This document shows positions 28,896-54,792 of a stretch of 63,108 nt of DNA, piece after piece. How positions within the stretch are numbered: the stretch's first letter is position 1; every line of letters starts with the position of its first letter. A model generated the notes under the pieces. It ran no database searches, was not told where the DNA came from, and worked only from the letters and a program-made list of their open reading frames with translations. Position numbers and translations under genes: made by a program. Origin of the DNA: an uncultured Bacteroidales bacterium (lineage in GTDB: Bacteria > Bacteroidota > Bacteroidia > Bacteroidales > Paludibacteraceae); the NCBI GenBank assembly GCA_949282265.1, contig CASDOZ010000012.1:1-63108 (forward strand). The letters are read 5' to 3'.

Positions 28896-29165
28896 TAGCC
28901 GAAAACAATGGGGAAAAACCGAAAACCCTTAAATAGAGTAGGTTTTAACAATAAAATACTTTAATCAAGAAACTGCATCTATTTACAATTTTAGGTACAA
29001 TGCTATGACAAATATGAGTTACTATAGCAAATGGACAATAAGTCAAATAAGCAATCAACATTCTATATAATTTTAAAATAATTCAATCTACAGTTCCATA
29101 AAACCAAAAATAAAACAGCAAAAATAAACACGGCTAAAACACAATAACAATAAATATTTTAAAAC

Positions 29166-50667: not shown

Positions 50668-50736
50668 ATTCTTAGTGTATTAAAACCTGATTATTTTAAG
50701 TTGCAAACTATGGCAATAAAATATCCCTGCTGGCAC

Positions 50737-50806
50737 AAAAAAAGAAAGGTTGTCTCACGACAACCCAATCTTTACTTAACCTTAAATCTAATACCATGAA
50801 AAACAC
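50737..50806 (-). ncRNA. Small RNA element, copy 1
   Basis: On the minus strand the element has TACTTTTG (50811-50818) with CTTG 20 nt further upstream, a start near 50806, a conserved core (CATGGTATTAGATTTAAGG with short flanks, 50777-50797) and a terminator with stem GGTTGTC/GACAACC (50748-50765) capped by GTGA, a GNRA loop, then a T-rich tail. Expected size is ~70 nt. Upstream at 50860-50873 is the palindrome ATGTTTTATAACAT found at the other copies. The GH2 gene starts 70 bp beyond the terminator, so this copy may double as a leader. Confidence 0.75.
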
Positions 50807-50810
50807 GATG

Positions 50811-50842
50811 CAAAAGTAATGCTTTCTACAATACCATGCAAG
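50811..50842 (-). promoter_or_regulatory. Promoter of small RNA copy 1
   Basis: CTTG (50839-50842), 20 nt, TACTTTTG (50811-50818) on the minus strand. The -33 box has one mismatch to TTTG. Confidence 0.7.
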
Positions 50843-50859
50843 AAATATGAGCAAAAAAC

Positions 50860-50873
50860 ATGTTTTATAACAT
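50860..50873. promoter_or_regulatory. Conserved palindrome upstream of small RNA copy 1
   Basis: ATGTTTTATAACAT is a near-perfect inverted repeat (ATGTT/AACAT arms) kept in all four elements, 17-21 bp upstream of the -33 box, so it may be an operator or activator site. Confidence 0.55.
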
Positions 50874-51131
50874 ATTTTTAACATTTCCTGCAAGTTGAAA
50901 ACATTATACCAAAAAGAACAAACTTGAACAGCATACAAAAAACGAATGAAAAATAGGGATATAAACGGTTAAAACAACCTTGACACATTAATCATATTCG
51001 TTGGTAATATCACAATTCCACCTATGAATTTAAAAAGGACAATCTTACCTATTCCACTTGACAAAACAAACATTCCCAACACTTCAAAAATCATGTTCAA
51101 TAGCTTTGATATACCAGACACTTAACCGTTG

Positions 51132-51155
51132 AAACTTATTTTACGAAATAAGTTT
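51132..51155. repeat. 10-bp inverted repeat in the intergenic region
   Basis: AAACTTATTT and AAATAAGTTT flank TACG. No T run follows, so an operator or stable hairpin is possible. The rest of 50880-51220 shows nothing else I can support. Confidence 0.4.
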
Positions 51156-51224
51156 ACCCTCAAAAAATCAAGCCATTATTACAATTGCAATACGTTAAAT
51201 ATACATAAAACCGCAAATCCTTTA

Positions 51225-51255
51225 TTGTAGGAAGCCCCTAAAACACATATCTTTG
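51225..51255 (+). promoter_or_regulatory. Promoter of the large secreted protein gene
   Basis: TTG (51225-51227), 20 nt, TATCTTTG (51248-51255) match the -33/-7 pattern. The leader would be about 95 nt. Confidence 0.65.
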
Positions 51256-51352
51256 TGATAATTAGTTTTATTCATATTAACAAAATCAAAAATCATCTTT
51301 TCAAAAGAACAAAAGTATTCCTATTTATTAACTTTAAAAACAATCAGTGTTT

Positions 51353-53404
51353 ATGAAAAAAATATTTTTACCTTTTATGATTATGTGCGCTGCGTTGTTC
51401 ATGTCGCAATCCGTGTCGGCAGAGAATTATACGATAGCAAACATTACATCCAACATGTCTACTAACGAAAATTACAATCTGAACAATCTTACAGATGGTG
51501 ATTTCAAAACCAAGTTCTGGTCGGGTGGCCCACAAGCTGCAAATCAGTACATTTTGGTTGATTTGGGAACCATACAGCCATTGCAGGAAATCAATCTCTA
51601 TTTCGCATCCGGCGACCAACCTACCGCTGCAAAAATCGAAATTTCGAATGATGGTTCACAGTATGAGGAGTTGGTTAGCTTTACTCAAAGTGAGATAGGC
51701 GGAGCAGGAACCAACTATCTTTATTCCTGCAGCGCGTTGAACAAAGAGGCTCAATATATCCGTTTCAGCTTGACTGCAGCAACTTCCAGCTGGTTCCAGA
51801 TGACGGAAATCCAGATTCCCATACCAGATGCGAAAGCTCCGAGCAGAACGATAACCGTAAGCGTAAATGATGCCTCAATGGGTACAGCATATATAGGAAC
51901 AGAAGGGACTGTTTCTCAAACCGCAGAAGGTCCCATCGTGCTTAAAGCTGTGTCGAACCCCGGATATGCGTTCACCAGTTGGACGATTAACGGTGCCGTT
52001 GTTGCCAGAACCGCCGATTTGATTGACAACACCGAAGGAGACAAAAACTATGTGGCAAACTTTACTCCCGCGCCTTATGACGAATTTTGTACTCCGGCAG
52101 CTACTACCGGTGGAAACAAACGTGCGCAGTCGAAGGGTGAAATACTGAATGCCACGGGTGTCATAGCTGGTTCTACTATGGAATTTTATCCGAGCGGCAG
52201 CACGGCAAATCAGGCATGGAGCAACAGAAGCGACATGGTAAAAGTAGAATCCGGTGCAACTTTTGACCTTAAAGTTACCTACGGAACGGAAGGCTGGGGA
52301 AGTCTCAGTGTATATCAGATGACTTCTTCCGACGATTACACAATGATATATGGCCCGTACGAAGGAGCATGGGCGACAGATGCAGCTACAACAACACTGT
52401 TTTCAAACATCAATGCTGCAGATGATTTGGCTACGGCAAATGAATCGGATGGAACAATAACTTTCCCAATAACCATACCTATAGAATCATACATGGGCAA
52501 TGCTGTAGTGATAAGATTTATCGTGCACAAAACCACATTAAACGACAATCCGTGTGCAACAGGTATAGAAGAGTTGAACTATTGCGATTATGTGTTCTAT
52601 GTTGACAAGGGGAAACCGGTTATCACTGCAAAAGCAGATCCTTCAAATGGAGGCACGGTTGCCATAAACGATGGTACATTCGGTGCAACAGCTTCGTTGG
52701 GAGTAGAAGAAAACGGTTCTTGTGTTTTGAAAGCTCAACCTGCCGAAAGCTACCAATTTATCGGCTGGTACGATGCCAATGGCACACAAGTAAGTACAGA
52801 TTCGGAATATACCGTATCCAACATAACCAGTTCTGCAACATATACTGCCAAATTTGAGTTTGTTGAGCCCAAATATATATTAACTTATGAAGTTAAGGGT
52901 AGCGGTTATGTTGAAGTCTGGTCTGGTGACACATGGACAGAATCTACGCCAGCAGGACAGTTTGTTAAACCTGCCGGAGAACAATATAGTTTGAATGCAG
53001 AACTTCCTTATAAAGGCAATGTGTACATTTTTGCTTTCCCAGTAGGGGAAAATACATTGGAAAGCATTGTTGTCAACGGTAAAGATATGACTCAAGATGA
53101 GTTGTTCAGGAATTATGGAGACATAGAACATACCGTTGAATCAAATCTCCACATTAAAGCCGTATTTACTGGCGAGGATCTTGTCAGTGGCGTAGAACCC
53201 ACAATATATGATAATGCAAAGATTTACAGCGTCAAAGGAGGCATAAAAATAATTGCAGAATCTACAACTGCTAAAATCTACAACATGAACGGAGCTTGCA
53301 TCAGTTCGGTTAATGTTAATGGCACCGAATCTGTTTCCGTACCGGCTGGAATATATGCAGTTGTCATAAATGGAGGTAAAACTTACAAAGTTCTTGTTAA
53401 GTAA
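51353..53404 (+). CDS. Secreted discoidin/InlB-repeat protein with T9SS-type sorting domain
   Basis: From the ATG at 51353 the protein has 683 residues and a signal peptide (MKKIFLPFMIMCAALFM...SVSA). Residues ~25-160 form a discoidin (F5/8 type C-like) domain (DGDFKTKFWSG, QYILVDLGT, YIRFSLTAA). About three InlB-type B repeats follow (~165-240, ~420-500, ~505-590), recognisable as GYAFTSWTINGAVV and YQFIGWYDANG. The last ~70 residues (IYSVKGGIKII, AKIYNMNGACI, VPAGIYAVVINGGKTYKVLVK) match a type A sorting domain. It is likely a surface or secreted carbohydrate-binding adhesin. It is divergent from the GH2 gene. Confidence 0.83.
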   Translation: MKKIFLPFMIMCAALFMSQSVSAENYTIANITSNMSTNENYNLNNLTDGDFKTKFWSGGPQAANQYILVDLGTIQPLQEINLYFASGDQPTAAKIEISNDGSQYEELVSFTQSEIGGAGTNYLYSCSALNKEAQYIRFSLTAATSSWFQMTEIQIPIPDAKAPSRTITVSVNDASMGTAYIGTEGTVSQTAEGPIVLKAVSNPGYAFTSWTINGAVVARTADLIDNTEGDKNYVANFTPAPYDEFCTPAATTGGNKRAQSKGEILNATGVIAGSTMEFYPSGSTANQAWSNRSDMVKVESGATFDLKVTYGTEGWGSLSVYQMTSSDDYTMIYGPYEGAWATDAATTTLFSNINAADDLATANESDGTITFPITIPIESYMGNAVVIRFIVHKTTLNDNPCATGIEELNYCDYVFYVDKGKPVITAKADPSNGGTVAINDGTFGATASLGVEENGSCVLKAQPAESYQFIGWYDANGTQVSTDSEYTVSNITSSATYTAKFEFVEPKYILTYEVKGSGYVEVWSGDTWTESTPAGQFVKPAGEQYSLNAELPYKGNVYIFAFPVGENTLESIVVNGKDMTQDELFRNYGDIEHTVESNLHIKAVFTGEDLVSGVEPTIYDNAKIYSVKGGIKIIAESTTAKIYNMNGACISSVNVNGTESVSVPAGIYAVVINGGKTYKVLVK

Positions 53405-53426
53405 TTAGAGCATCATGTTTTATTTA

Positions 53427-53458
53427 AAAAGGAGATTGCCGCCTGGCAATCTCCTTTT
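53427..53458 (+). terminator. Terminator of the large secreted protein gene
   Basis: A perfect 14-bp stem (53427-53440 with 53445-53458, AAAAGGAGATTGCC/GGCAATCTCCTTTT) with loop GCCT. Confidence 0.9.
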
Positions 53459-53485
53459 ATTTTTACATCAAGGTATTAAATGCAC

Positions 53486-53557
53486 AAAAAAAGAAAGGTT
53501 GTCTCACGACAACCCAATCTCAATTTTTAACCTTAAATCTAATACCATGAAAAACAC
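53486..53557 (-). ncRNA. Small RNA element, copy 2
   Basis: Same architecture on the minus strand: TTTG at 53590-53593, exactly 20 nt, TACTTTTG at 53562-53569, the conserved core, and the stem at 53497-53514 with GTGA loop and T tail. The palindrome ATGTTTTATAACAT lies at 53611-53624. It stands alone between two plus-strand genes, so it is not the leader of any gene. Confidence 0.78.
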
Positions 53558-53561
53558 GGTG

Positions 53562-53593
53562 CAAAAGTAACGTTTCCTTATGTAACCACCAAA
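53562..53593 (-). promoter_or_regulatory. Promoter of small RNA copy 2
   Basis: Perfect TTTG and TACTTTTG, 20 nt apart, on the minus strand. The conserved palindrome follows at 53611-53624. Confidence 0.82.
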
Positions 53594-53693
53594 TAAAATG
53601 TTCAAAAACTATGTTTTATAACATATTTTATCCATTCGGGAGCAAAACGGCAAATAAGCACAAACCGCATACAATACTTTCCTGCTATTTTCG

Positions 53694-53701
53694 TACTTTT
53701 G
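53694..53701 (+). promoter_or_regulatory. -7 box of the HAD phosphatase gene
   Basis: TACTTTTG lies 17 bp before the start codon. No good -33 element is visible. Confidence 0.5.
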
Positions 53702-53717
53702 CCACAAAAAGCAGATT

Positions 53718-54368
53718 ATGCATTATACGACCTATCTTTTTGACTTTGATTATACACTTGCAGATTCTTCCAAAGGCATCGTAACTTGTTTTCGCAACGT
53801 GCTCACACAGCATGGATACATACAAGTAACAGACGATGCCATCAAACGGACTATTGGGAAAACACTTGAAGAATCATTTTCGATACTCACCGGCATCAAA
53901 GATGAGAACACATTACTTGGTTTCAAAAAGGAATACACAAAAGAGGCAGACACCTATATGACCATAAACACAGTGCTATTTCCCGAAACAAAATTCATAT
54001 TGACTGAACTGAAAAAGCAAGGGGCACAATTGGGAATTATTTCAACCAAATACCGCTTCCGGATCCAAGAGTTGCTGGACATACATTTCCCCACTGGATT
54101 TATGGATATTATCGTTGGAGGTGAAGATGTGCAATTACCCAAACCATCACCAGAGGGTTTGCTATACGCTATCCAATGCTTAGGTGCCAAGCCCCTAGAA
54201 ACCCTATACATAGGCGACAGCACAGTAGATGCGGAAACTGCACAAGCCGGGCAAATAGATTTTGCCGGTATCCTACACGGCGTTACCCCCGCATACGAAC
54301 TGAACAAGTACCCTCATGTACAAATTATGGCTAACTTAAACGAATTGCTGAATCTTGACAAGAGATAG
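53718..54368 (+). CDS. HAD-family phosphatase (phosphoglycolate phosphatase-like)
   Basis: The 216-residue protein has the HAD set: motif I DFDYTLADSS (nucleophile and acid Asp), a cap domain, motif II ISTKYR, Lys in LPKPSPEGL and motif IV YIGDSTVDAETAQAG. Size and cap fit the Gph/PpaX-like class, which dephosphorylates phosphoglycolate or similar small phosphates. The actual substrate is unknown. It is transcribed alone and is flanked by the small-RNA copies 2 and 3. Confidence 0.9.
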   Translation: MHYTTYLFDFDYTLADSSKGIVTCFRNVLTQHGYIQVTDDAIKRTIGKTLEESFSILTGIKDENTLLGFKKEYTKEADTYMTINTVLFPETKFILTELKKQGAQLGIISTKYRFRIQELLDIHFPTGFMDIIVGGEDVQLPKPSPEGLLYAIQCLGAKPLETLYIGDSTVDAETAQAGQIDFAGILHGVTPAYELNKYPHVQIMANLNELLNLDKR

Positions 54369-54395
54369 CGTTACAAAAAAGGTGAAGTACAAAAA

Positions 54396-54468
54396 CAAAA
54401 AAGAAAGGTTGTCTCACGACAACCCAACCTTAATTATTAACCTTAAATCTAAATACCATGAAAAACAC
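54396..54468 (-). ncRNA. Small RNA element, copy 3
   Basis: On the minus strand: CTTG at 54501-54504, 20 nt, TATCTTTG at 54473-54480, a core with one extra T, and the terminator stem at 54407-54424 with GTGA loop. The upstream palindrome is partly degenerate (ATTTTATAACAT, 54525-54536). It is the most diverged of the four in its promoter. Confidence 0.72.
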
Positions 54469-54472
54469 GATG

Positions 54473-54504
54473 CAAAGATAAGACATCACATATCATTATA
54501 CAAG
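54473..54504 (-). promoter_or_regulatory. Promoter of small RNA copy 3
   Basis: CTTG and TATCTTTG separated by 20 nt on the minus strand. Confidence 0.68.
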
Positions 54505-54620
54505 ATATTCCCTCCAAAAACCCCATTTTATAACATCTTTTACACAAGATGGAATCGAACAAGCACTAATTAACAAATCAACCCAAACGTTATTAATAGT
54601 AAGTGCATCGACATTTCCAT

Positions 54621-54691
54621 AAAAAGAAAGGTTGTCTCACGACAACCCAACCCTAATTATTAACCTTAAATCTAATACCATGAAAAAACAC
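54621..54691 (-). ncRNA. Small RNA element, copy 4
   Basis: On the minus strand: TTTG at 54724-54727, 20 nt, TACTTTTG at 54696-54703, the conserved core with one extra T in the T run, and the terminator stem at 54630-54647. The palindrome ATGTTTTATAACAT lies at 54746-54759. It starts about 100 bp past the mnmA stop. It stands alone about 225 bp upstream of copy 3, in the same direction. Confidence 0.77.
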
Positions 54692-54695
54692 GGTG

Positions 54696-54727
54696 CAAAA
54701 GTACATGTTTTCCAGTCTTCACGCAAA
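54696..54727 (-). promoter_or_regulatory. Promoter of small RNA copy 4
   Basis: Perfect TTTG and TACTTTTG, 20 nt apart, on the minus strand. Confidence 0.8.
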
Positions 54728-54792
54728 CATAAATACCCAAAAACCATGTTTTATAACATAGTTTTAACAATACTTGCCGGGTATTATTTTTC

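Follow-up and report, generated by a model that had tools for sequence, protein, structure and literature searches.

In enterobacteria, a Crp-type factor turns on CRP-controlled small RNAs (sRNAs), such as CyaR, that repress an outer membrane protein. In Bacteroides thetaiotaomicron, Ruttiger et al. described in 2025 the FopS sRNAs, which are encoded in 14 copies, carry sigma-ABfr promoters and give rise to RNAs of ∼65 and ∼70 nt (PMC11697453). The sigma-ABfr consensus consists of TTTG at −33 and TAnnTTTG at −7 (PMC7366714). The FopS target is the mRNA of a SusC-like glycan transporter: the R1' seed pairs with susC start regions and blocks translation in vitro, and RbpB, an RRM protein that binds FopS sequence specifically, relieves this block (PMC11697453). 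The same paper reported 12 to 15 copies in the other Bacteroides species that it names, a BLAST survey with matches in the Bacteroidaceae, one phage, and induction of FopS by bile salts; a transcriptional regulator was proposed there, but not named. A second open-access paper on FopS cites this work (PMC12119571). GibS, another sRNA, has its R1 seed in common with FopS (PMC11697453), but differs by a second seed and a PM2 promoter.

A regulator known to act on an sRNA of B. thetaiotaomicron is the Crp-like carbon limitation regulator BT4338 (Cur), for which the consensus wwwTATGTTnTAnAACATAwww was proposed (PMC3878776) and supported at fusA2 by chromatin immunoprecipitation (ChIP) and deletion (PMC6989115). 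Cur activates the sRNA MasB (PMC10994844), and some sRNAs that rise in carbon limitation sit near BT4338 sites; the study in question names BTnc140, 195, and 364 but does not use the word FopS (PMC10294740). The main text of the FopS paper mentions neither Cur nor Crp nor BT_4338 (PMC11697453). As far as searches of the open-access literature show, no link between Cur and FopS is in print.

Four FopS genes within 4 kb

We analyzed a stretch of 63,108 nucleotides (the window) from an uncultured member of the Paludibacteraceae (Bacteroidales), in which a sequence-only reading had pointed out a minus-strand element in four copies and taken it for a trans-acting sRNA. All four were matched by the covariance model of the Rfam family RF04319, FopS, with bit scores of 65.8 to 78.1 against a gathering cutoff of 56 (full model) and cmscan E values of 8.9e-10 to 2.2e-7. 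The 5' ends that had been predicted for the four transcripts coincided with the first position of the model (Table 1). Judged by this model, the four repeats are genes of an already known sRNA family ("family of paralogous sRNAs"). The trans-acting reading was therefore right and the family known, since transcripts, pairing, and susC repression have been published for FopS of B. thetaiotaomicron (PMC11697453). These 4 matches were the only ones in this genome (2.47-Mb assembly, 89% complete; 150 of 186 candidate places scored), so that FopS is multicopy here as well, but with 4 copies within 4 kb compared to 14 in B. thetaiotaomicron and below the other published copy numbers. Apart from this, the copies resemble those of B. 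thetaiotaomicron in sequence and structure model, promoter, length, R1' seed, and terminator. An identity with GibS was rejected because the copies match the FopS model and carry the canonical promoter instead of PM2.

TABLE 1 Positions of the FopS genes and their elements in the window
Feature	Position	Strand	Remark
FopS copy 1	50734..50806	-	RF04319, 78.1 bits; 5' end 50806
FopS copy 2	53483..53557	-	RF04319, 74.8 bits; 5' end 53557
FopS copy 3	54397..54468	-	RF04319, 65.8 bits; 5' end 54468
FopS copy 4	54620..54691	-	RF04319, 71.2 bits; 5' end 54691
-7 box TACTTTTG, copy 1	50811..50818	-	-33 TTG at 50839-50841
-7 box TACTTTTG, copy 2	53562..53569	-	-33 TTTG at 53589-53592
-7 box TATCTTTG, copy 3	54473..54480	-	-33 TTG at 54501-54503
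-7 box TACTTTTG, copy 4	54696..54703	-	-33 TTTG at 54724-54727
5' part with R1' seed, copy 1	50777..50806	-	nearly all unpaired in fold
5' part with R1' seed, copy 2	53528..53557	-	equivalent of copy 1 part
5' part with R1' seed, copy 3	54438..54468	-	equivalent of copy 1 part
5' part with R1' seed, copy 4	54661..54691	-	equivalent of copy 1 part
Terminator hairpin, copy 1	50747..50766	-	
Terminator hairpin, copy 2	53496..53515	-	
Terminator hairpin, copy 3	54406..54425	-	
Terminator hairpin, copy 4	54629..54648	-	
Cur/Crp-like palindrome ATGTTATAAAACAT, copy 1	50860..50873	.	center -60.5
Cur/Crp-like palindrome, copy 2	53611..53624	.	center -60.5; 14/14 fixed consensus letters
Degenerate palindrome, copy 3 (ATGTTATAAAATGG, minus strand)	54523..54536	.	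>2 mismatches
Cur/Crp-like palindrome, copy 4	54746..54759	.	center -61.5

Promoters, RNA bodies, and terminators

Along the minus strand, each copy consisted of a palindrome, TTG or TTTG, 20 nt, TAnnTTTG, 4 nt, and an RNA of ∼72 to 75 nt. Counting on the printed sequences confirmed that the spacer is exactly 20 nt in all four copies, and the −7 box, likewise present in all four, is that of the published sigma-ABfr promoters. The −33 box ascribed to every copy was complete (TTTG) in copies 2 and 4 but reduced to TTG in copies 1 and 3. A scan for sigma-70 promoters gave no excess (14 found versus 11.9 expected).

In the predicted folds (z-scores of −1.9 to −2.7), each copy had a largely unpaired 5' part with a hairpin below it; copies 1 to 3 showed hardly any pairing in this part, and copy 4 showed weak alternative pairing there. 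The ∼30 nt of the 5' part were almost invariant among 41 aligned copies. The stem GGGTTGTC-GTGA-GACAACCT, followed by a T-rich tail, was identical in all four copies, as the sequence-only reading had it. This is the architecture of FopS, i.e., a single-stranded 5' part with the R1' seed followed by a Rho-independent terminator.

For a wider comparison, we read 65 FopS loci (4 from this genome, 5 from a congener, G001, 28 from a family search, and 28 from a class search); they are those returned by the searches and thus biased to high scores, with 3 loci below the cutoff in family f5 or outside the order and a few others below it. Hairpins, read sequence by sequence, were readable in 61 of them. 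The GNRA cap noted earlier held for the four copies in the window but was not general (GTGA in 17 and GTGAT in 12 of the 61 hairpins). The stem varied and yet still paired, with 18 different readings, some of which differ only in that the same stem is extended by one pair; GGTTGTC/GACAACC accounted for 35 of the 61. RNAalifold predicted only 4 pairs (−0.42 kcal/mol; 2 pairs changed on both sides) from a MAFFT alignment of 41 copies, perhaps because loops of unequal length were misaligned.

Since an open frame of 76 amino acids spans copy 1, with an ATG within TTTTTCATGG, the repeats might instead encode a small peptide. We give this next to no weight: the frame is shifted by length differences between the copies, several copies have CATAG for CATGG, and small open reading frames were ruled out by the FopS authors in their own copies (PMC11697453).

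A Cur-like palindrome at a fixed distance upstream

Of the palindromes said to precede the copies, those of copies 1, 2, and 4 read ATGTTATAAAACAT exactly, but that of copy 3 was degenerate. These three exact sites were the best fits to the Cur consensus in the window (13, 14, and 13 of the 14 fixed letters, respectively); no fit of at least 13 letters occurred in 30 shuffles. When seven copies from the two species were aligned, the palindrome and the −33 and −7 elements stood out from diverged flanks. A literature search with the palindrome as a string matched no paper with Bacteroides in its title.

Within 110 bp upstream of the 65 loci, ATGTTN4AACAT was present without mismatch in 18 loci (0.03 in shuffles) and with at most one mismatch in 39 (1.1 in shuffles), although this comparison overstates independence because the loci are related and were picked by a high family score. 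The 39 sites clustered at two positions, with 14 near −61, 21 near −30, and 4 elsewhere. When up to two mismatches were allowed, 18 loci had a site at about −61 (class A), 22 had one at about −30, over the −33 box (class B), 1 had both, and 24 had neither. The overlap with the −33 box suggests repression rather than activation in class B. Among named records, again with up to two mismatches, a site at −60.5 was found in the single Bacteroides ovatus copy and in 6 of 8 copies of B. finegoldii, and class A also in 2 of 3 copies of Phocaeicola massiliensis, and class B was found in one B. finegoldii copy and in Parabacteroides distasonis. FopS of Prevotella sp. oral taxon 299 had no palindrome, and P. 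nigrescens had a two-mismatch site only. An association of promoter class with the seed letter (CATGG/CATAG) in f2, Bacteroides, and Phocaeicola (Fisher P = 0.02 to 0.03; 23 loci, 14 of class A or B) was found post hoc and is not relied on.

Besides FopS, this genome contained two further exact 14-mers, both at carbohydrate and cell wall sugar genes and both the same in the congener: one between the gene for N-acetylmuramic acid 6-phosphate etherase and susC (L072, 1501-1514; C9), the other upstream of a 4-alpha-glucanotransferase gene (L076, 1501-1514; C19). Of the five exact sites of the congener, one was located where an aminotransferase gene ends. One HTH_Crp_2 protein and two cNMP-binding proteins were found in this genome, of which the HTH_Crp_2 protein is a candidate Cur only. 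No autoregulatory palindrome was found directly before its gene; the closest one, with 12 of 14 letters matched, lies inside the next gene at a distance of ∼500 bp.

From the distribution and fit of these sites we infer regulation of FopS by Cur, including the direction of control. In our view, the window holds four FopS genes with sigma-ABfr promoters of their own, the transcription of which is probably raised by a Cur-type Crp regulator at the palindrome. The proposed regulator appears well supported by sequence, even though copy 3 has no good palindrome, 24 of the 65 loci lack a site near −61 or −30 at up to two mismatches, and induction by bile salts (PMC11697453) is a signal not tied to Cur. 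The latter, together with the unnamed regulator proposed in that paper, would also fit FopS sRNAs with a palindrome that belongs to some other regulator, responding, e.g., to bile salts or envelope stress. A second conserved element could point the same way: 18 of the 65 loci (shuffles: mean 0.6, maximum 5) contained the direct repeat GTTAA-N5-GTTAA with its start between −77 and −75. These 18 are all among L038-L065 and L166-L193, and 15 of them had the palindrome at about −30, which makes 15 of the 22 class B loci. With a spacer of 6 nt, it was found in 3 of 65 loci (shuffles: 0.5, maximum 3), and with 4, 7, and 8 nt in 1, 1, and 2; having been found post hoc, the repeat is a lead. That the Cur orthologue of this genome is a candidate only leaves further room for another regulator. 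Nonetheless, we regard such a regulator as rather unlikely, given that half-site and spacing fit the published Cur consensus and that the other two exact sites of the genome lie at carbohydrate and cell wall sugar genes.

Each FopS gene would be transcribed from its own sigma-ABfr promoter into an RNA of ∼72 to 75 nt, the 5' seed of which is free and which ends in an intrinsic terminator. A Cur-type regulator of the Crp family would bind the palindrome ∼61 bp upstream of the start and probably raise transcription, and FopS would therefore be made when preferred carbon is scarce. The same arrangement has a precedent in MasB, an sRNA in the Cur regulon, which is a different RNA with another target and for which control by Cur was tested by mutation (PMC10994844).

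Complementarity of the seed to SusC-like start regions

The FopS seed is antisense to AACCTTAAATCTAATACCATGAAAAA, which resembles a start region. We compared it with start regions from loci of the two genomes and from the window, with the start codon crudely set to the first ATG of every frame; SusC-like genes were defined by frame length and by location in loci retrieved with TIGR04056, some of which, in both genomes, scored below the cutoff of that model. Against 52 SusC/TonB-like start regions of the two genomes, the mean energy was −15.1 kcal/mol, compared to −11.6 ± 0.6 kcal/mol for shuffled seeds, none of which reached the observed value (0 of 200). The difference between SusC-like genes and 136 other genes was −1.8 (shuffled seeds, +0.2 ± 0.45; 0 of 200). 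Taken by genome, this difference was significant here (P = 0.004) but not in the congener (P = 0.17). The best single target was the susC gene in L103, with an exact complement of 13 nt; the gene of the congener that appears to correspond to it (L136) retains CTAATACC. When each start region was paired with a shuffled seed of its own, 6 of 200 rounds also gave runs of at least 13 nt. Much of the seed match is to an ATG with A-rich codons after it, a trait of secreted proteins generally. Overall, seed complementarity to SusC-like start regions appears to be in excess. Family membership, promoter, terminator, the palindrome at its fixed distance, and this excess can be read from the DNA; pairing and translational repression of susC by these copies would follow by analogy with the work in B. 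thetaiotaomicron.

Genomic surroundings and probable exchange between copies

The neighbors of the FopS copies are genes for a GH2 beta-galactosidase-like protein, an F5/8 type C domain protein, a HAD hydrolase, and mnmA. Copy 1 lies 66 bp upstream of the GH2 gene and yet has its own terminator at its end, copy 2 sits between the genes for the F5/8C-domain protein and the HAD hydrolase, both on the plus strand, and copy 4 is located directly downstream of mnmA on the same strand. The congener has three copies near mnmA and the HAD gene and two copies below the cutoff elsewhere. Two of the three clearly correspond to copies 3 and 4, and the third combines an upstream region like that of copy 2 with a body and tail like those of copy 1. 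Between copies 1 and 2, a 2.75-kb stretch (50734-53557) carries the F5/8C-domain gene (51347-53404, plus strand), which is missing there in the congener. Because the copy in the congener joins the upstream region of copy 2 to the body of copy 1 where the intervening gene is missing, the FopS copies seem to have recombined with each other. A simple exchange would not account for this, as the GH2 gene and FopS are farther apart in the congener (∼500 bp versus 66 bp).

Such a pattern is also what a dispersed repeat or recombination element devoid of RNA function might leave behind. This explanation is exceedingly unlikely in view of the nearly invariant 5' part, the terminator stems that still pair, the conserved promoter spacing, and the expression of FopS RNAs in B. 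thetaiotaomicron (PMC11697453).

Two other RNA structures were observed in the window. A strong hairpin of 14 pairs with a T-rich tail (53427-53458) is situated 3' of the plus-strand gene at 51347-53404, and 28908-28944 matched the Rfam DUF805b RNA (RF02914; 36.4 bits versus a cutoff of 35.6).

Distribution in bacteria and phages

The sequence-only reading had suggested, with reservation, that similar sequences exist in other Bacteroidales and proposed a covariance model search of this and other genomes. Run with RF04319, this search bore out the suggestion. FopS was matched in 185 of 200 sampled genomes of the family (own genome included) at an E value of 0.001, 168 of them above the cutoff. 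In a class sample of 395 genomes (own genome included), 16 matched, and the 13 above the cutoff, again including our own, all belonged to the same order. Among the other same-order genomes listed, 13 of 14 matched (359 nonmatching genomes of the class stand outside this list). Matches above the cutoff came from five other families of the order (f2, f3, f4, f6, and f8), and two weak ones were found outside it. Named records with a match included Prevotella, Parabacteroides, Bacteroides, and Phocaeicola. In a plasmid collection, 19 records matched, of which 13 were read. Records of B. finegoldii TSDC17.2-1.1 labeled as plasmids (e.g., NZ_OY725927.1) carry genes such as mutS and are probably chromosome contigs.

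The 28-letter FopS core (one degenerate position) occurred exactly in 24 IMG/VR contigs. By eye, a FopS promoter was present in 12 of them and absent in the other 12 (L194, L198, L199, L204, L206-L210, L212, L213, and L217). In 11 of these promoterless contigs, a same-strand frame ends no more than ∼130 nt upstream of the core, and hairpin-like sequence follows it; the promoterless cores are possibly 3'-untranslated-region-derived, FopS-like RNAs. An Rfam scan of 11 phage contigs gave three matches above the cutoff, two without a promoter (L194 and L207) and one with a promoter (L205). Terminase, endolysin, and other phage families were found near the core in several contigs; of 10 proteins compared, 9 matched a PHROG. 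Beside the phage copies in L194 and L213, tRNA-like ends had been seen by eye, but ARAGORN found no tRNA.

FopS in genomes without an RRM_1 match

In contrast to the published circuit, in which an RRM protein takes part, Pfam RRM_1 had no match at an E value of 0.001 in this genome (89% complete) or in the congener (99% complete). Among 61 genomes of the family that were searched, 29 had an RRM_1 match: 25 had both FopS and RRM_1, 29 FopS only, 4 RRM_1 only, and 3 neither. For the 44 genomes with at least 90% completeness and at most 5% contamination, the respective numbers were 21, 20, 1, and 2. We infer that FopS works here without RbpB, the place of which may be taken by another RNA-binding protein. 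As about half of the sampled FopS-bearing genomes of the family lack an RRM_1 match, the published RbpB circuit is perhaps not general. The sequence-specific binding of FopS by RbpB in B. thetaiotaomicron (PMC11697453) could also mean that the main role of the RNAs is to serve as a ligand or sink for RbpB rather than to pair with mRNAs. This is very unlikely for the copies described here, with no RRM_1 match in either genome and FopS present without RRM_1 in 20 of the 44 more complete genomes of the family.

Two aspects look new compared to the described FopS system: its occurrence in genomes without an RRM_1 match and the candidate Cur site before FopS, a palindrome at −61 that is absent from the main text of the FopS paper (PMC11697453).

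Implications for the FopS family

FopS would work like the CyaR-type sRNAs of enterobacteria; homology is not claimed, and RNA-binding proteins and promoters differ. Tentatively, and with less than even confidence, we propose that FopS is the RNA arm of a Crp-like carbon starvation regulon across the Bacteroidales. Its promoters would come in two builds, one with an activator site at −61 and one in which a site at about −30 overlaps the promoter core, often together with GTTAA-N5-GTTAA at −76. Starvation would turn some paralogues on and others off, and the copies would hence be divided by control and not redundant. In roughly half of the family genomes sampled, the RNAs would act without RbpB, and phages may carry the RNA core to steer the surface transporters of their hosts.

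Beyond the known family, the palindrome makes Cur a concrete candidate for the unnamed regulator of the FopS paper. If Cur drives FopS, one starvation signal would activate genes for sugar use and at the same time restrain SusC importers that lack their substrate, and promoter class could serve to test why the family is multicopy.
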